Source: Paludibacteraceae bacterium | GTDB taxonomy: Bacteria > Bacteroidota > Bacteroidia > Bacteroidales > Paludibacteraceae | Length of the DNA: 64,000 nucleotides | NCBI GenBank assembly: GCA_017550335.1 | Contig: JAFZPM010000030.1 | Span: 1 to 64,000, forward strand | Reading direction: 5' to 3' | Part shown: piece after piece, positions 46,162 through 64,000 of the stretch | How the letters are laid out: the number at the start of each line of letters is the position of its first letter | Numbering within the stretch: position 1 is the first letter of the stretch | Translations under genes and position numbers: made by a program | Notes under the pieces: generated by a model | Databases searched by the model: none | Seen by the model: the letters and a program-made list of their open reading frames with translations, nothing else | What the model was told of the DNA's origin: nothing

Positions 46162-47346
46162 ATGAAGTTCATCCACACATCGGACTGGCATATCGGGCAG
46201 GATTTCTACCGATATGACCGTGAGGAGGAGCACCGCAGCTTCTTCCAACAATTGTGTGCCATCGTGGAGAGGGAGCAACCCGACGCACTGCTGGTCAGCG
46301 GAGACATCTACCACACCGCCGTCCCTTCCGCCGCGGCGCAGAAACTCTACACCGACAGCATGGTGGCCATCCACAAAGCGTGCCCATCCATGTCCATCAT
46401 CGTCACCGCCGGCAACCATGACAGCTACTCCCGACTGGAGTCGGCCGACGAGCTCTGGCAACTGGCGAACGTGAAGGTGATCGGTCATGCAGAGAAAGAT
46501 GAAAACAACGAATCCATCGAAAAAAAACATATCATTCCCATCCAAGGGAAAGGCGGAGCAACCATCGCCTACGTCATCGCCATCCCCCATATCAGGGAGA
46601 GCCAAATGGGACTGTTCAACACGACGCAGGAAATCGTCCGAGAAAAGAACAAACAGGATGTGCCTGTCATCATGATGGGGCACCTCACCCTCTGCGGGGC
46701 GGACACCAGAGGGCACGACGAGCAATCGGTGGGTGGCATGGATTACGTGGAGATCAACACGCTAGGGGATTACTACGATTACTTCGCCTTGGGACATATC
46801 CACCACCCGCAATTCATCAAAGGGGATGAGAAGGCGAGGTACAGCGGTAGCCCGATCCAAGTCAACTTCGACGAGATGTACCCGCACTCGGTCTCCGTGG
46901 TGGAGATCAACCGACACGGCGAGAAGGCTTCCGTCAAGGAGGTCACCATCCAGAACGACCATCGGTTTTTAACGATTCCATCGGAACCTTTGCCCTTCGA
47001 GGAGGCGTTCAAGGCCTTCGCCGAAACCCCTGTCGACCCCTCTTCCTACGTCTGCCTCAACGTGGAGGTGGAGGAGTATGTGCCTTCGGACGCGGAGACG
47101 AGGATAGAGCAACTGCTCCAACTGAAAAAGTGCCGGTTCTGCAAGATAAAGACAACAAGGAAGGCAAGGAAACACCCGTCAGCCGCCCACATCATCGACT
47201 CCTACGAAATCACAAGCATGGAGCCCGCCGAACTCGCCAACACCTACTACCAGGAGGTCTACGGCAGGGAGTTGGACGAAGAGATGACGACGATGATCCG
47301 GGAGATCACGGAGGGACTCCGTAGAAAGGAGCGGGAGGAGGCATGA
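46162..47346 (+). CDS. sbcD: Exonuclease subunit SbcD
   Basis: 394 residues from ATG 46162. A Mre11-like phosphoesterase with HTSDWHIGQ, LLVSGDIYHT, VTAGNHDSYSR, MMGHLTL and ALGHIHH metal-binding motifs in order. With SbcC it cuts hairpins and processes DNA ends. The stop overlaps sbcC by 4 nt. The frame opens earlier inside the kinase gene, but that part is not SbcD-like. Confidence 0.95.
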   Translation: MKFIHTSDWHIGQDFYRYDREEEHRSFFQQLCAIVEREQPDALLVSGDIYHTAVPSAAAQKLYTDSMVAIHKACPSMSIIVTAGNHDSYSRLESADELWQLANVKVIGHAEKDENNESIEKKHIIPIQGKGGATIAYVIAIPHIRESQMGLFNTTQEIVREKNKQDVPVIMMGHLTLCGADTRGHDEQSVGGMDYVEINTLGDYYDYFALGHIHHPQFIKGDEKARYSGSPIQVNFDEMYPHSVSVVEINRHGEKASVKEVTIQNDHRFLTIPSEPLPFEEAFKAFAETPVDPSSYVCLNVEVEEYVPSDAETRIEQLLQLKKCRFCKIKTTRKARKHPSAAHIIDSYEITSMEPAELANTYYQEVYGRELDEEMTTMIREITEGLRRKEREEA

Positions 47347-50300
47347 AGTACCTATCGTTACATATAAAAAACATCGCATCCATCGAGAAAGCGGACATCT
47401 ATTTCGACCGGGAGCCCTTCTCGGGAAACCCTATATTCCTCATCTGCGGAGAGACAGGTTCCGGCAAGAGCACGATACTGGACGCCATCTGTCTGGCCCT
47501 CTACGCCAACACGCCAAGGATCAACAACAGCGCGACCGTCAAAGAGAAGGAGGAGAACGAGGTGATGGGCTTCAAGGACATCAGACAGATGATGCGACGG
47601 GGAGCAAAAGAGGGCTCCGCCGAACTACACTTCATCGGAAACGATGAACAGACCTACACCGCACTTTGGACGGTACGGCAGAAAAGAACCGGCAATGTGG
47701 AGGACAGCCGTAGCCTGGAATGTCCGGTGAAAGGACTATATTTGACAAAAAAGAGGGAGATCGACGCCGAAATCGAACGATGCGTGGGAATGAAGTACGA
47801 ACAGTTCTGCCGCACCTCCCTACTGGCCCAAGGCGAGTTCACCAAGTTCCTCTCCAGCAACGAGAAGGAGAAGTCCGATATATTGGAAAAACTGACAGGC
47901 ACGGAGATCTACTCCCAAGTAGGCATCGCCATCTTCGAGAAAGCGAAGGCGGTCAAGGAGGCTTGCGCCAACGAGGAGAAGAAGATAGAGGGGTTCGAGA
48001 TCCTCACAGAGGAGGAGACCCGCCAAAAGAAAGAGGAACTGAAGATCCTGAACGACCGTCAAGCGATGGTCCAAAAAGGGAAACGCCAAGCGGAAGGGAT
48101 TAGAGAGTGGTTGACGACGGAGAAGAAGCTGCAACAGGATCTCGCCACCGCCACCCAAAACCGCCAACAACTGGAGGAAGAGATAAAAAAGCCCGATTTC
48201 ATCCGACAAAAAAGGAATATCGAAGAGTGGAGCGCCACCATCGAAGTGCGCAACGAAATGCTCAACCTGAAGAACCGTGAGGCGGAGAGAATCACCCTGT
48301 CGGAGAAGGAGGCGAACATCCGAAAAGAGTTCCGAAGGATCAGCGGCGGCATCACCTGGGCGAAGGAGAGACTCAACGAGAAGAGGATCCTCGACCAAAA
48401 ACTGACAAAGGAGTTGGAAGGGCAGAAAGAGGAGGCGGAGATGTATGAGGCCTTCCCTTCCATCCAAGAGAACCTGAACGGATACCTGAGCGAACGGAAA
48501 GAGGCGGAGAAGTCCCGCAGCGAAGCGAAGAGGATCGAGACGGAGGAGTTGCCCAATATCCAGAAAAAAATCGATGAAATCGCAAAAATAAAACAGGAGT
48601 GCGACGAAAAAGAGCAGCAGAAGCAAGCCGAACTGACCGCCAAACAGGATGAGTTGAAAGGCAAAGACCTCAACCTGCTGAACGAGGAGATCACCCGTCT
48701 GCAACAACTCGACAACGAATGGAGACTCCAACAGAAGGAGGAGACGCGGCTCAACGCACAACAGGAGAAGCTGACCGTCCTGACCGGAGAGGAAAAGAGT
48801 CTCACCCAAAGAGTACCCGACGAGAAGAAGAAGTACGAGGATTGGAAGGAGGAAGAGCAGAAACACGCCAAGAGCCTGCAAACCCTACGATTGGCCGTGG
48901 GAGACGCCATCAAGGAGATACGCCACTCGCTGAAGGTCGGGGACGAATGCCCGATATGCGGGAAAAAGATCGATTCCATCGTGAAAGAGAGTGAACTGGA
49001 AGCCGCCATCGCCCCTTACGAAAAGGAGCTGGAGGAGATCCGCAAATCCAAGGAAAATGCGTTGAAATCACTGACCGACTGCGAAAAGCGGATCGAGCTG
49101 ATCCTCCAGGAGAAGAAGAACCTCACAGAGGAGATCCGCAAAATCGAGGAGGAGACAAAGCAAAGAGGGGCAACGATACAGCAATTGTGCCAGAGCCTGT
49201 CTATTCCCCAAGATAAACTAAAAATCGGCGAATCCATCGCAGAAAAGAAGAGGATAAAAGAGCAAGAGCGGGAGGCCATCCTCAACACGCAAAAGGTCAT
49301 CGGCGAGCTGCAGAAGGAGAAGGACACCATCGTCCAATCCCGCAACAAAGCCCAAGAGGCGCTCAACGAGGCGGAGAAGCGGGCAAGCGTCGCCAAAGAG
49401 CGGATCACAGAGAGCCTAAGCATCGCTAAAACCCACGATGAAAACGCTAAAAAAAGATACGAAACCGCCGCGAAGAAGATCAAGCGGGAGGATTGGGGAA
49501 CGGACATCCCAGCCTTCCTCGTCTCCTTGGAGCAGGAGGTGAAAGCATACAAGGAACGTTGCCAGACAAAGGAGCGGCTCATCCTTGAGATCAGCCAATG
49601 GGAGAATGCCCTCGACACCATCGAAGAAGACCAGAAATGGATCCTGCAGACATTCCCCGATTGGGAGAGCGATGGCGTCTCCACCCGAATCGATCAACTC
49701 ACCCAGCTCACCTCCCAGTTGGCGAAAGAGTGTTCATCGCTCCAAAGCGACCTGAGGAAAAACCAGGAGGAGAGAAACCAGTTGACACAAAAAATAGACG
49801 ATTTCATCCGAGAAAACAGCACCTTCACGCAGGAGCGCCTCACCGAATTGCAGCAGATCACCAAGGAGAGATTTGAGGAGGAGAAGCGGGCAATCGAGGA
49901 GAAGGGAAGGCAAATCGACATGGCGGAGGGTGAGATCAAGAGCCTCAACAAAAGAATCGAGGAGACGAAGGCGGAAAAACCCGAAGGGATAACGTCCGAG
50001 ACCACCCTTGCATCCGTTACGGAGAAAATCGGGCAGGCTGATGCGGAGATGAAGGAAATCATCGAATCCATCGCAAAAATAGAGCTCGACTTCAAGCGGA
50101 GCGAGGAGAACATACGGAAGGTGGCGGAGGTCAGGAAGAACGTCGAAAAACTCCGGGAGGAGTGGAGCAAATGGGACATCCTCAACCAGCACTTCGGAAG
50201 CAGTGACGGAAAGGCCTTCCGCCTCATCGCGCAAAGCTACGTGCTCCGCCAACTGCTGAACAACGCCAACGCCTTCCTGATGAAACTGAACGACCGCTAC

Positions 50301-50672
50301 GAACTGAGCTGCAACAGCCGAAGCCTCGGCATTTGGGTGCGCGACCTCTACATGGGCGGCAACGTGCGCCCCTGCAACACGCTGTCGGGAGGCGAGAGCT
50401 TCATCATCTCCCTCGCCCTGGCCTTAGGCCTCTCCACGCTCAACAAAAGCAGGCTGACCACCGACATCATCTTCATCGACGAGGGATTCGGCACCCTCAG
50501 CGCAGACTACCTGGACGCCGTGATGAACATGCTGGAGAAGCTCCATAACCTCGGTGGCAAGAAGGTCGGCATCATCTCGCACGTGGAGATCCTGAAGGAG
50601 CGCATACCGACCCAGATACGGGTCAGCAAGAGAGGGATCAATGGGTGCAGCGAGGTTCAGGTGAAAGGATAA
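47343..50672 (+). CDS. sbcC: Exonuclease subunit SbcC
   Basis: 1109 residues, Rad50-like SMC ATPase. Walker A ICGETGSGKSTILDA (about 36-50); Q-loop region FCRTSLLAQGEFTKFL; long coiled coils; zinc hook ECPICGKK with Cys536 and Cys539; ABC signature LSGGESFIISLALALGLS; Walker B IIFIDEGFGTLS. It works with SbcD. A ~100-bp divergent copy of its codons ~698-732 is present at 62852-62953, fused to an ATPase tail. Confidence 0.95.
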   Translation: MKYLSLHIKNIASIEKADIYFDREPFSGNPIFLICGETGSGKSTILDAICLALYANTPRINNSATVKEKEENEVMGFKDIRQMMRRGAKEGSAELHFIGNDEQTYTALWTVRQKRTGNVEDSRSLECPVKGLYLTKKREIDAEIERCVGMKYEQFCRTSLLAQGEFTKFLSSNEKEKSDILEKLTGTEIYSQVGIAIFEKAKAVKEACANEEKKIEGFEILTEEETRQKKEELKILNDRQAMVQKGKRQAEGIREWLTTEKKLQQDLATATQNRQQLEEEIKKPDFIRQKRNIEEWSATIEVRNEMLNLKNREAERITLSEKEANIRKEFRRISGGITWAKERLNEKRILDQKLTKELEGQKEEAEMYEAFPSIQENLNGYLSERKEAEKSRSEAKRIETEELPNIQKKIDEIAKIKQECDEKEQQKQAELTAKQDELKGKDLNLLNEEITRLQQLDNEWRLQQKEETRLNAQQEKLTVLTGEEKSLTQRVPDEKKKYEDWKEEEQKHAKSLQTLRLAVGDAIKEIRHSLKVGDECPICGKKIDSIVKESELEAAIAPYEKELEEIRKSKENALKSLTDCEKRIELILQEKKNLTEEIRKIEEETKQRGATIQQLCQSLSIPQDKLKIGESIAEKKRIKEQEREAILNTQKVIGELQKEKDTIVQSRNKAQEALNEAEKRASVAKERITESLSIAKTHDENAKKRYETAAKKIKREDWGTDIPAFLVSLEQEVKAYKERCQTKERLILEISQWENALDTIEEDQKWILQTFPDWESDGVSTRIDQLTQLTSQLAKECSSLQSDLRKNQEERNQLTQKIDDFIRENSTFTQERLTELQQITKERFEEEKRAIEEKGRQIDMAEGEIKSLNKRIEETKAEKPEGITSETTLASVTEKIGQADAEMKEIIESIAKIELDFKRSEENIRKVAEVRKNVEKLREEWSKWDILNQHFGSSDGKAFRLIAQSYVLRQLLNNANAFLMKLNDRYELSCNSRSLGIWVRDLYMGGNVRPCNTLSGGESFIISLALALGLSTLNKSRLTTDIIFIDEGFGTLSADYLDAVMNMLEKLHNLGGKKVGIISHVEILKERIPTQIRVSKRGINGCSEVQVKG

Positions 50673-50880: not shown

Positions 50881-50905
50881 AACACGCTAATTATCTTTAT
50901 ATTTG
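50874..50905 (+). promoter_or_regulatory. Promoter of the first DUF4143 ATPase
   Basis: TTTG (874-877), 20 nt, TATATTTG (898-905). The -33 box lies in the degenerate fourth copy of the 33-bp palindromic repeat, so a protein on the array should block transcription. Confidence 0.75.
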
Positions 50906-50932
50906 CAGGTAAATCGTAACAACGGGGAAAGT

Positions 50933-52072
50933 ATGGCAATAGAAAGAACACTAAAACATCAAATAGCAGCAAGGATCAAGCCACAAAAAGTGATGCTAAT
51001 ATTTGGGGCTCGGCGTGTTGGGAAGACGCTGCTGCTACGCGAGATCCTTGACGAGTTCAAGGGGAAGAAACTTCTATTGAATGGAGAAAGCGCCGACACG
51101 GCACGTATGATCGCGGACAAATCCATAAGCAACTACAAACGTTTGTTTGCGGGAATAGACTTGTTGGCAATCGACGAGGCGCAACATATCCCCGACATTG
51201 GGATGAAACTAAAATTAATGGTTGATGAAATACCAGGCTTGGCGATAATCGCGACGGGGTCCTCCTCATTTGACCTTCAGAATCAAGCGGGAGAACCATT
51301 AGTTGGACGATGCACACGTTTTTTCCTGACCCCGTTTTCTTTCAAAGAGTTGAGCGACCATCATTCCGTATTTGAGACCGTATCGAACATAGACAGACAC
51401 TTAATATACGGATGTTATCCGGAACTAATCAGCATAGAGTCGTCAAAAGAGCAAGCTCGTTATCTTACGGAGATTGTGGACTCCTATCTATTACGGGACA
51501 TTCTCGCCGTCGATGGAATAAAGAACGCACAGAAGATGCACGATCTATTGCGATTGATAGCATATCAAGTCGGCAGTGAAGTATCCATTGACGAACTGGG
51601 CAAACAGTTGGGCATTAGCCGCAACACAACTGAGCGTTATCTCGATCTGTTGCAGAAAGTGTTCGTGTTGTACCGATTGGGAGGATATTCCAATAATCTC
51701 CGCAAAGAGGTCACCAAATCATCCAAATGGTATTTTCAAGACAACGGCATCCGCAACGCTGTGTTGAATGATTTCCGCCCGCTCGCCGACAGATCGAGCG
51801 AAGAGAGAGGCGCATTGTGGGAAAATTTCATCATCAGTGAGCGGATGAAGATGAAACACAACAACTTAGCGAGCACCAACATGTTTTTCTGGCGAACATA
51901 CGACCAGCAGGAGATTGACCTGATAGAAGAGAATAACAACAACCTTACCGCATTCGAAATGAAAGCCGGGAAGAAGAACCCTAAGGCTCCCAAAGCGTTT
52001 GCAGACGCATATCCTAACGCGAAATTCAACGTGGTGAACAAGGAGAATTTTTGGGAGTATTTGGGGGTATGA
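50933..52072 (+). CDS. AAA ATPase with DUF4143 domain (copy 1)
   Basis: 379 residues from ATG 50933 (MAIERTLK). P-loop IFGARRVGKT at about 23-32; Walker B LLAIDEAQHI; sensor-like IIATGSSSFDL; C-terminal DUF4143 with nuclease-like ending (WRTYDQQEIDLIEENNN...FEMKAG: D-x-IEE...E-x-K). A winged-helix-like middle (LGISRNTTERYLDLLQ) is present. The family is common and variable in Bacteroidales; function is unknown, and links to defence or toxin-antitoxin activity are inferred. It is transcribed alone behind an iterated operator. Confidence 0.88.
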   Translation: MAIERTLKHQIAARIKPQKVMLIFGARRVGKTLLLREILDEFKGKKLLLNGESADTARMIADKSISNYKRLFAGIDLLAIDEAQHIPDIGMKLKLMVDEIPGLAIIATGSSSFDLQNQAGEPLVGRCTRFFLTPFSFKELSDHHSVFETVSNIDRHLIYGCYPELISIESSKEQARYLTEIVDSYLLRDILAVDGIKNAQKMHDLLRLIAYQVGSEVSIDELGKQLGISRNTTERYLDLLQKVFVLYRLGGYSNNLRKEVTKSSKWYFQDNGIRNAVLNDFRPLADRSSEERGALWENFIISERMKMKHNNLASTNMFFWRTYDQQEIDLIEENNNNLTAFEMKAGKKNPKAPKAFADAYPNAKFNVVNKENFWEYLGV

Positions 52073-54858: not shown

Positions 54859-57800
54859 ATGAGCATTCATGACATCCTCGCAAAATTCAGACAGGAGACT
54901 GTCACTGAGCGCCAAAAAGGCGATGTTTTTGAAAAACTAATGCAGCGTTGGCTGCTATCTGATCCTTCTTATTCCAATTTGTTTACAAAAGTTTGGATGT
55001 GGAAAGATTCTCCATGTACTGAGAGTTTAGGAAAACAAGATTTGGGTATCGATTTAGTTGCATTAGACGACAATGGTGGTTACTGGGCTATACAATGCAA
55101 ATGCTATGACGATAAAACAGTTATTCAGAAAGCGGCAGTAGATTCCTTTTTAGCTAATAGTTCACGTCAATTCAATATAGACAATCAAACATATTCATTC
55201 GCTGGTAGACTTTGGATTTCTACTACAAATAAATTTGGGAAAAATGCAGAGCAATCTTTAGAGAATCAAAACCCGCCAGTCAACAAAGTAAGTCTAAACA
55301 CTTTAAATGATTCACAAGTGGATTGGGAGTTGTTGTTGAATGGAAAGAACGGAACCGATGCACTTCGTAAAAAGGCCACACCCAGGGATTATCAATTGCC
55401 TATCATTGATGCTGCACTAGATCATTTCAGTCAGAACGAGAGAGGAACATTAGTAATGGCATGCGGAACAGGAAAAACTCTAACCTCAATGTTTATAGCT
55501 CAACAAATGCTTAAAAACAAGGGGTTGGTTTTGTTTTTGGCTCCATCAATAGCATTGGTTGCACAATCTCTCAATAGTTGGTTCGCAAATTCGGAGAAAC
55601 CTATCAAAGCAGTTTGTGTATGCTCAGACAGTAGTGCTGGGTCTATTGAGTATAATGAAGAGGAAGACCACATGGTAGAATCCTTAACAGACTTGCCAAT
55701 ACGTTCATGCACTAATCCTAAGGCAATCATAGATGAAATCGAGAGATATAAGAATCATGATGGTTTACTTATTTGTTTCTCCACTTACCAGAGTATTGAT
55801 GTCGTAAAAACAGCGCAAAGCACGTTGATGGAGAAAAGCGGAGGGGAATTTGGAGAATTTGATCTAATCATCTGTGACGAGGCTCATAGAACTGCGTCTG
55901 TAAAAATAAGCGGGAAAAATGAGACAGATTTCACAAAAGTACATAATGGAAATTATGTCAAAGCCAAGCATAGAATGTATATGACCGCTACTCCGAAGAT
56001 ATACAACGAAGCAAGTAAAAACAAAGCAGACTTGAACGATGATCTTCTTTTCTCCATGGATAAGGAGGAGTATTTTGGAAAGCATTTCTATAATCTTGAT
56101 TTCGGCACAGCTGTAGATAAAGGGCTACTGACTGATTATAAGGTTTTAGTCCTTACCATAGATGAAAAAAATGCCAATTCTGAGTTTCTTAATGCTTATA
56201 AGAGATATGTGGATCAACATAATCAAGAAACTCCCGATAAAGAACATATACATCATATAACTCCAGAACAGCAAGCGATGATTATAGGTTCAGTAAGTGC
56301 TATGAGTAAGCAATTGCTGTACGCCAACAAGGATGACTTTGCTGAAGATGAAAATATAGGCAAACCAATGCATACAGCCATTGCCTTCTGCGATAACGTA
56401 AGACGCTATAAAAAAACAAAAGAAGGGGTTTATGTGGCGGAAGAAATATCACAGGCTTTTGAGGATGTTACTGCTGTTTACAAAAAAGTTTTTGAGGGGG
56501 ATGAGGATTCAAAAGAATTCTTGGAGAAGCTTGTTGATGTGAAATCCACTATGGTAAGCGGTGATATGCCGACTAATGAAAGGAACGAAAACTTGAACAT
56601 ACTTCGTGAATCTTTTGATCCTTATGAGAAGCGCAGTAACATCGTGTGCAATGTTAACTGTCTTAGTGAGGGTGTGGATGTCCCTGCTCTGGATGCCGCA
56701 ATTTTCTTGGCTTCTAAGAAGTCCATGATAACCATTGTCCAATCCGTAGGGCGTGTCATGCGAAAATTCGAGGGCAAAAAGTACGGATATATCATAGTTC
56801 CTGTGGTGATTCCTATAGGTGCCGACCCTGTCAAGGAGATGGACAAAAACGAGCGTTACAAGTTAGTGTGGAACATCTTGAATGCGATGCGCTCTCATGA
56901 CGAACGTTTGGCGGCAGAACTTAGCAACCACAATTACACTCATGTGAAAATCGTATCGCCTCGTCCCCCAAGAGGAGGAAATAGTGGAACTGGCGGTGGC
57001 AGACCTACTGGAGGCGGAGGAAAAACTGAGGGACCAATCCTCTTCCCTGAAGAGTTAGAGTTCGTTGATAAACTTTACGCCCGTATGGTGGATAAGGTAG
57101 GTGATCGTCTTTATTGGGATAAGTGGTCTACAAAAGTTGGAGACATCGCCCAAAACTTTATCGCCAGACTTAATGAGTTGGTGGAGAACGGCAAATATGT
57201 TAAAGAGGTTGATCATTTTGTATCTGACTTACAGAAAAACATCAACCCTTCAATTGACAGAGAACAAGCCATCACGTTCCTTGCCCAGCAATTGATTACG
57301 AAACCAGTGTTCGATGCGTTATTCCCAGATTATCAATTCGCTAAGAACAATACAGTCAGCAAGAGTATCCAAAGTGTCTTGGATGTGATTCAAGACGAAG
57401 CCTTCGTATCGGATAGGAATGTGTTGGAAACTTTCTACAACAATGTTTCCCAAGTTTGTGGAACATTACGAACTATCGATGAGAAGCAAGATACAATTAA
57501 AACGTTGTATGAGAAGTTCTTTAAGAAAGCCTTTCCTCGGATTGTAGAACAATTGGGAATAATATATACGCCCGTCGATTGTGTCAACTTTATCATCAAG
57601 AGCGTAGATGATGTTTTGAAAAAAGAATTCAAAGTGTCACTAAAAGACAGAGGGGTGAATATTCTTGATCCATTTACTGGAACTGGTACATTTATCACCC
57701 AAACATTGAACTATCTGAAAAATCATGGCATAACTGACGAAGATTTAAGATATAAGTACCTCAACGAGATACACTGTAACGAAATCGTCCTGCTCTCTTA

Positions 57801-60531
57801 TTACATCGCCGATGTGAATATTGAAAGCGTATACAATGACATCGTTTCTGAAAAAGGGTATCTTCCGTACAACAACATTTGCTTGACTGACACATTCCAA
57901 TTAACTGAAAGTAAACAATATAAATTCAAAGGTGAAGGTTATTATTTCATCGAGAACACGAAACAAATAGAACAACAAAAAAAGACTCCGATTAAGGTTA
58001 TCATAGCCAATCCTCCATATTCAATAGGGCAAAAATCTGCCGATGACATGGCTGCGAACTTACATTACGAGGATTTGGAGAGTAGGATTGAGCAAACCTA
58101 TGCCAAGAGATCCTCCGCTAATCTCCAAAAGTCCATCTATGATAGTTACATCAAAGCTTTCAGATGGGCTTCTGACCGTATTCATGAGAATGGAGAAACG
58201 GGAGGTGTTGTGGCATTCATAAGTAATGGTTCTTGGCTAGATGGTAATGCATTGGATGGTTTTAGAAAGTGTATCGAGGAAGAGTTCAGCGATATATATG
58301 TGTTCAATCTTCGAGGCAATCAGAGAACAAGCGGCGAATTGAGTCGTAAAGAGGGAGGTAAAATATTCGGAAGCGGAAGTAGGACTCCTGTTTCCATTAC
58401 CATTCTTGTCGATAACCCACATAAGTCTCCAGAAAGATTTGCTGTTTGGAAGAAGCTTAAAGATGCAGAGATAGAATTCAAACAATGTATTTTAACGGAT
58501 GAAGAGAAAAAGTTGATGAAAGCTGATATCCATTATCTTGATATTGGCGATTATCTGACGCAACAACAGAAACTTGATAAAATCAAGAAGATTGGATCCG
58601 TTCTATCAAAAGACTTTGGAAAAGGAAGAATCTCTCCAAACGAACATGGAGATTGGATTTCCATGAGAAATGATGCGTTCAAAGAACTAATTCCGATTAA
58701 TCCAGAGAAAAACTTTGAAGAAAAGTCGAAAACATTCTTTACATCTCAAGCCATTGGAGTAGCTACCAATCGAGATGCGTGGACATACAATTACTCCAAA
58801 GATGCATTGAAACAGGGAATAGACAAATTCATTGCTTTCTATGATAATCAGAGGAAGAATTATGCTTTAAAATCAAAAACCAATCCAACACTTAAAGTTG
58901 AAGATTTTATTGATACCGACAAGACTCAGATATCTTGGACTGTAAATATGAAGAAGTATTGTGAAAAGAACATAGAACTGTCTTATAGCAATACTGATTT
59001 TATTGAAGGATCATATCGTCCTTTCCAAAAAATGAGCCTATGTTACAATCAGTATATGATAGAACGTCCAGGACAATGGGGAAAACTCTTTCCGACTCCA
59101 AACCATGGAAATGTGGCAATTATTTTAAGCGGCATATCTGCTTCAAAACCATTTGCATGTTTAGCCACAAATCATATACCATGCCTTGATTCTATTGAAA
59201 AAGGTCAGTGTTTCCCTCTTTATTGGTATGAATCAACGGAGGATTTCAATAAACGTACTAAGAAGAAGGAAAATCCAGGAATGAAATCATTATTTGATGA
59301 TGACGATATGTATGATTATAAAAGAATAGGCTTCGATGAGTATGGATATCTTCGTCATGATGGAATCTCTGATTATATTCTCAAAGAATTCAGAACTCGT
59401 TACGGTTTAAGTGCTAAATCTACGGACATTACCAAGGAAGATATATTCTACTATGTGTATGGACTTCTTCATAGTGAGGATTATAGGACAACTTTTGAAG
59501 CTGATTTGAAGAAAATGTTGCCAAGGATTCCGATTGTCGAAAGTGCAAAAGAGTTCAAAGCATTTATGGAAGCAGGACGAAAACTAGCTGAATTACATCT
59601 GAATTATGAGGAGGTGGAACCATGCCCGGGCGTGACCGTCGAAGAGAGTGGCACCAAGCAAGACGAATATGCATATTACACTGTGGAAAAGATGCGTTTC
59701 CCATCAGGCGTGAAGGCCAAAGAGAAACCAAGCACCATACATTACAACGGACACATCGTGGTGAGAGGCATTCCACAGGTGGCTTACGACTACGTGGTGA
59801 ACGGCAAGTCGGCCATCGAATGGATCATGGAGCGCTATCAAGTCACTATCGACAAAGATAGCCAGATAAAGAACGACCCGAACGACTGGAGCCGAGAGCA
59901 CAATAAACCTCGCTACATCCTCGACCTGCTACTGAGCGTCATCAACGTGAGTGTGCAGACGGTGGCAATCGTGAAGAGCCTGCCATCGCTCAACTTAGGC
60001 GTAGCACAGAGCACCGCCACGCAACCAGCAACAGAGGCACCAGCAATGACAGAAATTTTGGAAGATGTAGCAGAAGAAGATAAATTTGTACAATTCTTGC
60101 CATTCTACAACCTGAAGGCAGCCTGCGGTGCGTTCGAAGCAAACGAGTTGCCAACGCAGACTGGTTGGATAGACATCTCAACAAGCGGAGTCCACCCAAG
60201 GGGAGACAAGAACTATTTCATTTGCCAAGCCAAAGGCAACTCCATGCAACCGAGAATCGAGGATGGCGATTGGGTCATCTGCCGCTTCTACACACCAGAC
60301 AACGGAGGTAGCCGTAACGGTAAGATGGTGATTGCGCAAATCAGCGAATATGACGGTGACTATGATGGCAAATACACCCTCAAAGAGTATCACAGCGAAA
60401 AGAACGCTGACGGCAGCCGCAAATCCATCACCCTCCGTCCGCTCAACAAAGCCTACTCCCCTATTGAACTACACGAAGAGGACGATGTGAAGGTGGTGGC
60501 TGTGGTAGAGGCGGTAATGAGAGGAATTTAA
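54859..60531 (+). CDS. Type ISP restriction-modification enzyme fused to a LexA/UmuD-like S24 peptidase
   Basis: 1890 residues from ATG 54859 (MSIHDILAKF); a GTG 26 codons upstream is open but lies in the leader hairpin. Order: Mrr-like nuclease (GIDLV Asp65; QCK Gln79, Lys81); SF2 helicase (Walker A ACGTGKT 201-207; DEAH 340-343); Gly-rich linker (~710-730); gamma-type adenine methyltransferase (DPFTGTGTF ~937; NPPYS 1051); target-recognition and ISP C-terminal part (AIEWIMERYQV). Residues ~1745-1890 resemble UmuD/LexA: cleavage-like Ala-Cys1756-Gly1757, then KGNSMQPRIEDGDW with Ser1795, and TLKEY with Lys1842. One polypeptide recognises, methylates, translocates and cuts DNA. Self-cleavage would release a ~134-residue tail. 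DNA turns GC-richer from ~59630. Confidence 0.88.
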   Translation: MSIHDILAKFRQETVTERQKGDVFEKLMQRWLLSDPSYSNLFTKVWMWKDSPCTESLGKQDLGIDLVALDDNGGYWAIQCKCYDDKTVIQKAAVDSFLANSSRQFNIDNQTYSFAGRLWISTTNKFGKNAEQSLENQNPPVNKVSLNTLNDSQVDWELLLNGKNGTDALRKKATPRDYQLPIIDAALDHFSQNERGTLVMACGTGKTLTSMFIAQQMLKNKGLVLFLAPSIALVAQSLNSWFANSEKPIKAVCVCSDSSAGSIEYNEEEDHMVESLTDLPIRSCTNPKAIIDEIERYKNHDGLLICFSTYQSIDVVKTAQSTLMEKSGGEFGEFDLIICDEAHRTASVKISGKNETDFTKVHNGNYVKAKHRMYMTATPKIYNEASKNKADLNDDLLFSMDKEEYFGKHFYNLDFGTAVDKGLLTDYKVLVLTIDEKNANSEFLNAYKRYVDQHNQETPDKEHIHHITPEQQAMIIGSVSAMSKQLLYANKDDFAEDENIGKPMHTAIAFCDNVRRYKKTKEGVYVAEEISQAFEDVTAVYKKVFEGDEDSKEFLEKLVDVKSTMVSGDMPTNERNENLNILRESFDPYEKRSNIVCNVNCLSEGVDVPALDAAIFLASKKSMITIVQSVGRVMRKFEGKKYGYIIVPVVIPIGADPVKEMDKNERYKLVWNILNAMRSHDERLAAELSNHNYTHVKIVSPRPPRGGNSGTGGGRPTGGGGKTEGPILFPEELEFVDKLYARMVDKVGDRLYWDKWSTKVGDIAQNFIARLNELVENGKYVKEVDHFVSDLQKNINPSIDREQAITFLAQQLITKPVFDALFPDYQFAKNNTVSKSIQSVLDVIQDEAFVSDRNVLETFYNNVSQVCGTLRTIDEKQDTIKTLYEKFFKKAFPRIVEQLGIIYTPVDCVNFIIKSVDDVLKKEFKVSLKDRGVNILDPFTGTGTFITQTLNYLKNHGITDEDLRYKYLNEIHCNEIVLLSYYIADVNIESVYNDIVSEKGYLPYNNICLTDTFQLTESKQYKFKGEGYYFIENTKQIEQQKKTPIKVIIANPPYSIGQKSADDMAANLHYEDLESRIEQTYAKRSSANLQKSIYDSYIKAFRWASDRIHENGETGGVVAFISNGSWLDGNALDGFRKCIEEEFSDIYVFNLRGNQRTSGELSRKEGGKIFGSGSRTPVSITILVDNPHKSPERFAVWKKLKDAEIEFKQCILTDEEKKLMKADIHYLDIGDYLTQQQKLDKIKKIGSVLSKDFGKGRISPNEHGDWISMRNDAFKELIPINPEKNFEEKSKTFFTSQAIGVATNRDAWTYNYSKDALKQGIDKFIAFYDNQRKNYALKSKTNPTLKVEDFIDTDKTQISWTVNMKKYCEKNIELSYSNTDFIEGSYRPFQKMSLCYNQYMIERPGQWGKLFPTPNHGNVAIILSGISASKPFACLATNHIPCLDSIEKGQCFPLYWYESTEDFNKRTKKKENPGMKSLFDDDDMYDYKRIGFDEYGYLRHDGISDYILKEFRTRYGLSAKSTDITKEDIFYYVYGLLHSEDYRTTFEADLKKMLPRIPIVESAKEFKAFMEAGRKLAELHLNYEEVEPCPGVTVEESGTKQDEYAYYTVEKMRFPSGVKAKEKPSTIHYNGHIVVRGIPQVAYDYVVNGKSAIEWIMERYQVTIDKDSQIKNDPNDWSREHNKPRYILDLLLSVINVSVQTVAIVKSLPSLNLGVAQSTATQPATEAPAMTEILEDVAEEDKFVQFLPFYNLKAACGAFEANELPTQTGWIDISTSGVHPRGDKNYFICQAKGNSMQPRIEDGDWVICRFYTPDNGGSRNGKMVIAQISEYDGDYDGKYTLKEYHSEKNADGSRKSITLRPLNKAYSPIELHEEDDVKVVAVVEAVMRGI

Positions 60532-61561: not shown

Positions 61562-62719
61562 CTAAAACAACTCCCCGGCCCATAAGGCTTTCAGGAAATC
61601 GGTGGCATATAAAACGCTGATGCCGTCTTCTGTCGCACGACTGATTTTATCAAGTCCCACGACAATTAGCTTCGCGTCGGGATATTCGTCCCGAAAACTT
61701 CGCAACCCCTTTAGATGTCTGTTCTGTATTTCCTCGGACGATTTAATCTCTATGGCGAACAATATATCTGATGAGTATTCATCTGAAACGACAACATCCA
61801 CCTCAATGCCCGATGCGGTGCGCCAATAGCTGAGTACGACATGTTTTTGCCTATAATCAACGTATGCCACAAGTTCCTGAACGATAAAGTGTTCGAACGC
61901 ATGACCGAAGTCAGCGGAACCAGGAAGGAGATTCCCCCTATGCGTGAGATAATTGACGATACCCACATCGAAATAATAGAACTTGGGAGCCTTTATGACT
62001 CTACGCTGCCGAACCTTGGTATACGCAGGGAGCATGAATCCGACAAGCGTCTCCTCCAATATCGAAAAATATTCCTTGACCGTCACAGCGCTCACTCCGC
62101 AGTCTGACGCAATGTTGTTATAATTCACCATCTCACCATCGGACAAGGCGGCAACCTCGAGAAAACGGGTGAATGAGGACAAATTGCGGCTCAATGCCTC
62201 GGCCATGATCTCCTGTTGCAGGTAATCGCCAACGTATGCCTGTAACCTCTTGGTGGCATTCTCCGTCAGATAATGGCGGGGAAGCATACCGTTATTGCAG
62301 GCCTTGATCAGATTGAAATCAGGGATTTCTGCGCTAACCAATGGCAAGAGCCTGCATCGCAACGCCCTGCCACCCAGCAGATTTGTTCCGTAACGCTTGA
62401 GTTTCCTTGCGCTGGAACCACTGAGAATGAAATGGATATCCTTCCTGACGATAAGCCACTGCACCTCATTGAGTAAATCCGGGAGTTTCTGCACCTCGTC
62501 TATGATAACAATGTCGCCGGGCTGTTTGCTTTGCAGGTCTTCCCGCAAAAGGGAAGGATTACGCCGCAACCGCTCAAAAGTGTCGAGACGCAGCAAATCA
62601 ATGTACGTCGCATCAGGGAAAAGATTGACAAGCAAAGTACTTTTCCCTGTTTGTCTGGCACCCCATAGGAACACGCTATCGGTTTGAACATCCTCTATTT
62701 TCAGAATCCTTTCTATCAT
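61562..62719 (-). CDS. AAA ATPase with DUF4143 domain (copy 2)
   Basis: 385 residues. P-loop LWGARQTGKST (~18-28); Walker B IVIIDEVQKL; sensor ILSGSSARKLK; winged-helix-like SDCGVSAVTVKEYFSILEE; C-terminal DUF4143 nuclease-like part (TASGIEVDVVVSD...FAIEIKSSEE: D-x-V and E-x-K). The same family as the ATPase at 50933 but quite diverged. Transcribed alone from a promoter carrying two palindromic operators. Role unknown. Confidence 0.88.
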   Translation of the reverse strand: MIERILKIEDVQTDSVFLWGARQTGKSTLLVNLFPDATYIDLLRLDTFERLRRNPSLLREDLQSKQPGDIVIIDEVQKLPDLLNEVQWLIVRKDIHFILSGSSARKLKRYGTNLLGGRALRCRLLPLVSAEIPDFNLIKACNNGMLPRHYLTENATKRLQAYVGDYLQQEIMAEALSRNLSSFTRFLEVAALSDGEMVNYNNIASDCGVSAVTVKEYFSILEETLVGFMLPAYTKVRQRRVIKAPKFYYFDVGIVNYLTHRGNLLPGSADFGHAFEHFIVQELVAYVDYRQKHVVLSYWRTASGIEVDVVVSDEYSSDILFAIEIKSSEEIQNRHLKGLRSFRDEYPDAKLIVVGLDKISRATEDGISVLYATDFLKALWAGELF

Positions 62720-62851: not shown

Positions 62852-63028
62852 CACGATGGAAACGCCCCAAAAGACACGAAATCACCGCAAAGAAGATCAA
62901 ACGGGAGCAGTGGGAGACGGACATACCCGCTTTCCTCGATTCCCTGGAGCAGGGTTTGCCATCGCATATCCCAACGCGAAATTCAACGTGATGAACAAGG
63001 AGAATTTTGGGGAATATGTTGGGGTGCC
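62852..63028 (+). pseudogene. Deletion scar: sbcC fragment fused to an ATPase tail
   Basis: 62852-62953 matches sbcC 49434-49536 at roughly 80% (AKKIKRE-W-TDIPAFL-SLEQ conserved, one base deleted). From 62954 on, it matches the last ~70 bp of the ATPase ending at 52072 (AYPNAKFNV-NKENF-EY-GV). The order equals the intact sbcC-ATPase locus with about 2.5 kb removed between. No function is expected. Confidence 0.8.
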
Positions 63029-63030
63029 AT

Positions 63031-63056
63031 AGAGACGCACGGCCGTGCGTCTCTAC
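63031..63056. repeat. 26-bp perfect palindrome (REP-like)
   Basis: TAGAGACGCACGG followed by its exact complement. Sequences of the GTAGAGACGC...GCGTCTCTAC kind recur between genes in many bacteria (general knowledge). Without a T-run it is not a classic terminator, though it could stall transcription. Confidence 0.75.
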
Positions 63057-63132: not shown

Positions 63133-64000
63133 ATGTTAGATAACGAAAACCGCTTATACATAGCGCATTCGGACCATCCGCTCTACATCGAGCCTAAGAT
63201 GGCGAACAGACACGGCCTCATCGCAGGCGCAACCGGAACAGGAAAGACAGTTTCCCTCCAAGTATTGGCAGAATCATTCAGTGATTTGGGTGTCCCTTGC
63301 TTCATGGCCGACATGAAGGGCGACCTCTCGGGCGTCTACAAAGAGGGTACCCTGACCAAGTTCATCGAGAAGAGACAAAACGAGTTCGGCGTCACGTTCG
63401 ACTTCCAACCCTACCCTGTCCAGTTCTTCGACGTCTACGGGGAGCAAGGTGTGCCGATGAGGGTGACCATCAAGAACTTCGGCGTACTGCTATTCTCCCG
63501 CATCATGTCGCTCACCGACACGCAGGAGGGCGTGCTGGCCGCTGTCTTCCGCATCTGCGAGGATAGGAACATGCCGCTGGACGACCTGAAGGACCTCCGC
63601 GCCGCGCTCAACTACATAGGGCAGAACGCCAAGGAGTTCCAAACGGAATACGGAAACATATCCTCCATCTCCGTGGGCGCCATCCAACGAAACCTGTTGG
63701 CGCTGGAGGAGCAGGGCGGCGACCTCTTCTTCGGTCTTCCTGAATTCAAGATCGAGGACTTCTTTGTCACAGAGAGAATGCACGACACCAAGAAGGGTAT
63801 GCTCAACATCCTCGCGGCGGATAAGCTCTACCACAACCCAAGGCTCTACTCCGCCTTCCTGATGTGGCTCCTGACCTCCATCTACAACGAGTTGCCTGAG
63901 GTGGGAGACCTGGACAAGCCTAAGTTCATCTTCTTCTTCGACGAGGCGCACCTGCTGTTCGACGACGCCTCCAAGGCATTGCTGACGCAGATAGAGAAGA
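63133..64000 (+). CDS. DUF853/HerA-like ATPase, partial at window end
   Basis: 289 codons are visible; the gene continues past the window. Starts MLDNENRLYIAHSD. P-loop LIAGATGTGKTVSLQ (~31-45), ADMKGDLSG, and Walker B FIFFFDEAHLLF, the pattern of DUF853 (helicase HerA C-terminal-like) ATPases. These are hexameric DNA-translocase-like proteins of unclear role. It begins after the scar and palindrome and marks the return to ordinary chromosomal composition. Confidence 0.92.
   Translation, partial: MLDNENRLYIAHSDHPLYIEPKMANRHGLIAGATGTGKTVSLQVLAESFSDLGVPCFMADMKGDLSGVYKEGTLTKFIEKRQNEFGVTFDFQPYPVQFFDVYGEQGVPMRVTIKNFGVLLFSRIMSLTDTQEGVLAAVFRICEDRNMPLDDLKDLRAALNYIGQNAKEFQTEYGNISSISVGAIQRNLLALEEQGGDLFFGLPEFKIEDFFVTERMHDTKKGMLNILAADKLYHNPRLYSAFLMWLLTSIYNELPEVGDLDKPKFIFFFDEAHLLFDDASKALLTQIEK

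Follow-up and report, generated by a model that had tools for sequence, protein, structure and literature searches.

Type ISP restriction-modification enzymes such as LlaBIII and LlaGI carry an Mrr nuclease, an SF2 translocase, a coupler, a gamma-type methyltransferase (MTase) and a specificity domain (TRD) in a single chain, and the general account of the architecture stops at the TRD (PMC3874165). Control of restriction by proteolysis is known from a different system. In E. coli restriction alleviation, ClpXP removes HsdR when the host DNA is damaged or contains unmodified sites (PMC12707154). EcoKI has no known self-protease tail, and a ClpXP degron in HsdR has been sought but not found (PMC4231737). 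LexA-like proteins, including E. coli LexA and Streptococcus IrvR, keep a ClpXP C-degron buried where they cut themselves, and in LexA, IrvR and HdiR self-cleavage bares the degron on the N-terminal fragment (PMC5742171). These proteins are transcription repressors, however, and IrvR is cleaved without RecA (PMC7101444).

The locus described here, from a Paludibacteraceae bacterium, joins a Type ISP enzyme to a LexA/UmuD-type tail in one polypeptide. Positions refer to the window, the whole stretch of 64,000 nucleotides that was analysed.

Domain architecture and the catalytic residues of the tail

An uninterrupted frame runs from an ATG at 54859 to a stop at 60531 (Table 1), and it is nearly certain that its 1890-residue product is a Type ISP restriction-modification enzyme with a C-terminal S24 domain. 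All five ISP parts are present in the expected order in one chain, every Pfam domain scores above its cut-off, and the best PDB matches to the whole protein are LlaBIII (4xqk, E 4e-290) and LlaGI (5ffj, E 2e-283), which bears out the assignment to Type ISP made in an earlier, sequence-only reading of this DNA. The translocase part consists of ResIII (residues 174–380) and Helicase_C (residues 552–635). The catalytic motifs are intact in the translation: IQCKCY (Q-x-K nuclease), ACGTGKT (Walker A), CDEAHRT (DEAH), DPFTGTGTF and NPPY. From this domain content, ATP-dependent translocation and collision cleavage of unmodified DNA, the usual Type ISP activity, would be expected. The difference from LlaBIII and LlaGI lies in the roughly 200 residues beyond the TRD, which form a linker and an S24 protease domain.

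Table 1. Features of the fused gene, in window coordinates.
Feature	Position	Strand	Basis
Type ISP restriction-modification enzyme + S24 tail, one polypeptide, 1890 aa	54859..60531	+	ORF; Pfam/PADLOC/PDB matches
Mrr-family nuclease domain, residues 34–163	54958..55347	+	Mrr_cat_2, E 5e-43 (Pfam)
SF2 helicase-like translocase, residues 174–635	55378..56763	+	ResIII E 1e-23; Helicase_C E 3.5e-10
ISP coupler domain, residues 752–868	57112..57462	+	ISP_coupler E 2e-36
N6-adenine methyltransferase domain, residues 876–1073	57484..58077	+	N6_Mtase E 3e-7; DPFTGTGTF and NPPY in translation
Type ISP C-terminal specificity domain (TRD), residues 1293–1690	58735..59928	+	Type_ISP_C E 3e-110, reaches profile end
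C-terminal cassette (TRD end + tail), about residues 1575–1890, swapped between ISP lineages	59581..60528	+	L014 vs L015 DNA identity
Variable linker between TRD and tail, residues 1691–1745	59929..60093	+	Fast-evolving among homologues, dN/dS 0.05–0.32
Peptidase_S24 (LexA/UmuD-type) tail, residues 1746–1890	60094..60528	+	PF00717; UmuD/LexA the only PDB molecules matching the tail profile; dN/dS 0.01–0.12
Predicted scissile bond Cys1756-Gly1757	60124..60129	+	Ala/Cys-Gly in 55/55 tails; aligns with UmuD Cys24-Gly25
Predicted nucleophile Ser1795 (GNSM)	60241..60243	+	Ser in 55/55 tails; aligns with UmuD Ser60
Predicted general base Lys1842 (YTLKEY)	60382..60384	+	Lys in 55/55 tails; aligns with UmuD Lys97

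The UmuD/LexA-like character first proposed for the tail was recovered by profile search, in which Peptidase_S24 matched residues 1754–1883 (E 1.4e-14, 54.2 bits against a curated cut-off of 23.3); UmuD and LexA are also the relatives of the tail in the PDB. The likeness comprises the S24 domain itself and an Ala/Cys-Gly pair, Ser and Lys that align with the known active site. The tail differs from LexA and UmuD in its surroundings. Pfam matched no HTH family in the 1890-residue protein, in which all sequence N-terminal to the tail belongs to a restriction-modification enzyme of about 1750 residues, and the S24 domain lies inside this large protein rather than in a small stand-alone one beside a umuC partner. 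An assembly chimera was ruled out, since the fusion is present in several independently assembled genomes.

Cys1756-Gly1757, Ser1795 (39 residues later) and Lys1842 are placed exactly as the sequence-only reading had them, and the profile alignment pairs them with Cys24-Gly25, Ser60 and Lys97 of UmuD. The Ser-Lys spacing is 47 here and 37 in UmuD, with an insertion before the Lys in the present tail. The scissile pair and the Ser/Lys dyad are retained in every intact homologue. Among 55 tails (selected by a pattern containing G.SM, a step at which zero tails were dropped), 14 of 141 alignment columns are invariant, including Ala1755, Gly1757, Ser1795 and Lys1842, and the residue preceding the scissile bond (P1) is exclusively Ala or Cys. 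The Ser/Lys pair and the upstream Ala/Cys-Gly are likewise conserved in a 24-sequence alignment; in a looser set of 37 tails, two short or partial matches fail to align at the Ser. Residues P3–P1 in the 55 tails read AAC, AAA, VAA, IAA or IAC, which appears close to the end of the LexA degron. AlphaFold models had a pLDDT of only about 40, both for the tail (7 sequences) and for TRD plus tail (5 sequences), the alignments being too shallow, and a Foldseek search with such a poor model ranked LexA first at a non-significant E of 0.18. Taken from its residues, the tail is a putative latent S24 self-protease.

Spread of the S24 tail among ISP enzymes and other proteins

A scan for the tail in 84,980 species genomes found four independently assembled Paludibacteraceae contigs on which the protein aligns over its full length (49–95% identity). 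Among 358 Paludibacteraceae genomes, the tail is present in 39 and sits on an ISP enzyme in eight, in one of which the gene is divided between two contigs. Most of the genomes are metagenome-assembled. The architecture, for which a search across Bacteroidales had been suggested, thus recurs in other members of the Paludibacteraceae. In the same family, five ISP relatives have no tail at all (L022, L023, L025, L026 and L027), and in L021 and L089 (L089:1414-6723) the S24 domain is replaced by a different, ASCH-like tail (ASCH 17.7 bits, below the cut-off of 21.2). Thus, the S24 tail is accessory, and the C-terminal end of ISP enzymes seems to serve as an attachment site for such extra domains.

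Where present, the tail is under strong purifying selection, with dN/dS values as low as those of the MTase and helicase; the linker and the variable TRD (0.24–0.48) mostly evolve faster. It is also mobile between enzymes. DNA identity between L014 and L015 changes sharply near residue 1575, from about 50–70% before this point (and only about 52% in the nuclease and helicase) to about 95% over the last 315 or so residues, indicating that the tail and the last part of the TRD move together as a cassette. Since the tails are 95–99% alike on enzymes whose bodies diverge (43% in the helicase), two separate gains among ISP lineages were considered but set aside: one gain followed by recombination is simpler, because all tailed ISP enzymes group together in the MTase tree (support 83/81) and form one ISP clade in the tail tree. 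Both trees are compatible with a single S24 acquisition by Paludibacteraceae ISP enzymes and subsequent cassette exchanges.

Beyond the ISP enzymes, the nearest relatives of the tail are the tails of other DNA-processing proteins, rather than LexA or UmuD. The earlier idea that SOS repressors and UmuD are the normal place for S24 domains fails for this subfamily, most members of which are attached to restriction enzymes or helicases. The carriers include Schlafen-group-3 (SLFN-g3) helicases, only some of which have a GIY-YIG nuclease at the N-terminus, and SauUSI-like Type IV enzymes (PLD-helicase-DUF3427; PADLOC mREase_IV, 814 bits), all with the S24 domain at the C-terminus. Several families of Type I HsdR also carry it, with T1RH-like, EcoR124-like and EcoEI-like C-termini and in an HSDR_N-SWI2/SNF2 form. 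Finally, the tail occurs on Methylase_S specificity subunits adjoining 683-residue REase-MTases (PADLOC IIG, 753 bits), around which no HsdR was recognised; the 683-residue proteins are labelled Type II-like, with a nuclease domain that is assigned from the PADLOC family and is not seen by Pfam. The carriers are unrelated to each other, but share the same S24 subfamily and its invariant residues. Where Pfam was used to type Type I loci with an S24-bearing HsdR, the adjoining HsdM and/or HsdS lack S24, and so does the 683-residue REase-MTase at both of the Type II-like loci that were typed; in the loci examined, there is one S24 carrier per restriction system.

In a tree of the 55 tails, the carrier type changes eight times, where the possible minimum is four and the mean for shuffled tips is 30, and well-supported branches alone require at least three changes for HsdR, three for SLFN helicases and two for specificity subunits. 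Hence, the S24 module has been passed several times between unrelated proteins. The tail was found in neither viral contigs nor phages, and a plasmid search gave one match, in Halomonas sp. PA16-9 (L051:2983-5453), where an SLFN-g3 type helicase has the tail in another frame. This gene is either frameshifted or contains a sequencing error, and it is the sole tail seen outside Bacteroidota. At four loci with an S24-bearing specificity subunit next to a 683-residue REase-MTase (L121, L123, L124 and L125), the start codon of the specificity gene may be internal. Some S24-tailed copies have an in-frame stop and are apparently decaying, namely two HsdR-S24 genes (L118 and L119) and G365:C7:69316-69606.

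The host genome and the surroundings of the gene

The host genome (3.47 Mb, 99% complete) contains no S24 domain other than the tail. The host thus has no canonical LexA or UmuD, and a classical SOS context cannot be assumed. RecA and ClpX are both encoded. Residues Gly229 and Arg243 of RecA matter for coprotease function, and the host RecA retains their equivalents. The single Y-family polymerase gene found is on a different contig.

The ISP gene is flanked by an SbcC/RAD50-type gene and a HerA-type helicase gene, both here (47343-50672 and 63133-64000) and in L014/L084. Relative to L084, the window has extra genes between these flanks, encoding a DUF4143 ATPase, a 638-residue protein without a Pfam match and a SUKH protein. 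The short ORF at 62965-63025 ends in AYPNAKFNVMNKENF, which resembles the C-terminus of the upstream DUF4143/AAA_14 ATPase (50903-52072), and is probably the remnant of a second gene of this kind. Another DUF4143 ATPase is encoded at 61562-62719. A perfect 22-bp palindrome, GAGACGCACGGCCGTGCGTCTC, lies at 63032-63053 and occurs once in the window. Scans for direct repeats, promoters and terminators around the gene gave nothing notable above chance.

Possible functions of the tail

Why would a restriction enzyme carry a latent self-protease? The reading we prefer, which we regard as about evenly poised between right and wrong, is that the tail is a portable protease that cuts itself on a damage cue and thereby exposes a LexA-like C-terminal degron, shutting restriction off. 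In the resting state the tail would be uncut, and the enzyme would restrict and modify as usual. Breakage of host DNA, by the enzyme itself or by other damage, would provide the cue, most likely in the form of RecA filaments on single-stranded DNA, as for LexA and UmuD. The cue would drive the Cys1756-Gly1757 loop into the Ser1795/Lys1842 site, where the chain would cut itself between these two residues. The restriction polypeptide would then end in ...LKAAC, at the place where LexA has its buried C-degron (...VAA), and the truncated polypeptide would go to ClpXP, leaving restriction off until repair and re-modification were complete. By analogy, RecA is the likely natural trigger.

In favor of this reading are the full ISP and S24 architecture, the full-length homologues, the invariant residues, P3–P1 residues close to the LexA degron end, the purifying selection, the repeated recruitment, the single carrier per system in the Type I loci typed and the presence of RecA and ClpX in the host. 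Self-cleavage, trigger and consequence are inferred from these parts, from their conservation and from the kinds of proteins that have recruited them. A shut-off after damage fits the way in which the tail recurs among restriction enzymes as well as the known alleviation by ClpXP. It would resemble EcoKI alleviation as a temporary proteolytic loss of restriction when the host DNA is damaged or unmodified, with the difference that the switch would lie within the enzyme. On the other hand, the cut end here would be AAC and not AA, so that degron function is uncertain. Since the tail is the only S24 domain of the genome, the host has no SOS response run by LexA that could vouch for RecA coprotease activity, and a RecA trigger also has the RecA-independent cleavage of IrvR against it. 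In the Type II-like systems the tail is on the specificity subunit, and its destruction would therefore affect methylation as well. Furthermore, E. coli EcoKI manages alleviation without any such tail. The release of a signalling fragment, also proposed in the sequence-only reading, was dropped, as there was no evidence to support it.

Because IrvR is cleaved without RecA and the host has no second S24 protein, a trigger within the translocase must be taken as a serious alternative, even if we consider it unlikely. Self-cleavage would still shut off restriction, but in response to a translocase event (stalling, long-lived translocation or collision) or some other stress, independently of RecA. 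Every carrier of the tail is, or belongs to, a helicase/translocase or restriction machine, and ClpXP targets EcoKI via a long-lived translocation state (PMC4231737). Against this, most studied S24 self-proteases do need RecA, and no separate motor gene was detected beside the Type II-like carriers.

The same conserved catalytic parts could also work in the opposite direction, which we think rather improbable. S24 domains of LexA and UmuD dimerize, and an uncut tail might restrain the enzyme, for example through such dimerization, until damage during phage infection led to self-cleavage and freed an active nuclease. Protease-activated nuclease proenzymes exist in phage defense (PMC12799240). 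However, the tail-less ISP relatives in the Paludibacteraceae are complete and presumably active, and a restriction-modification enzyme has to restrict before any damage arises. Moreover, the module is found on the R subunit in Type I systems and on S in the Type II-like ones, and is therefore not tied to one autoinhibited interface.

UmuD acts mostly through protein contacts. The tail might similarly serve as a docking domain that binds RecA, a clamp or a polymerase, or that dimerizes two enzymes, with cleavage being secondary or vestigial; Type ISP cleavage requires two converging enzymes (PMC7049714). The chances of this are low, since a vestigial protease should lose its catalytic residues, whereas Ser, Lys and Ala/Cys-Gly are invariant across five architectures. 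That the tail is a functionless passenger picked up by recombination is very improbable indeed, for although the cassette recombines between lineages and some ISP enzymes do without it, the tail has dN/dS values of 0.01–0.12 and invariant catalytic residues, and has been fused repeatedly to restriction and helicase proteins.

The S24 fusion gives a new form of Type ISP enzyme, and its wider importance lies in its being one case of a protease module that recurs among restriction systems. No description of S24 on restriction enzymes or helicases was found in the open-access literature, which is weak evidence of absence, and domain databases may already list S24-restriction architectures without comment. 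The preferred reading, a self-cleaving tail that shuts off restriction after damage, may be extended to all carriers: a single LexA/UmuD-type protease module would have been recruited several times, one copy per system, to serve as a damage-triggered self-destruct switch in Type I, ISP, II-like and IV restriction enzymes and in Schlafen-type helicases, in effect a general, built-in form of restriction alleviation. This extension is more tentative, and perhaps slightly likelier to fail than to hold. It has long been asked how restriction systems spare a host whose DNA has been damaged or lacks modification; a self-protease on the restriction enzyme would, if the reading is true, answer this for the systems concerned in a direct and genetically simple way. 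LexA/UmuD chemistry would then reach beyond gene regulation to the direct control of a nuclease, in a lineage whose genome has this as its one S24 protein, and the S24 tail would be a marker for finding regulated restriction systems.
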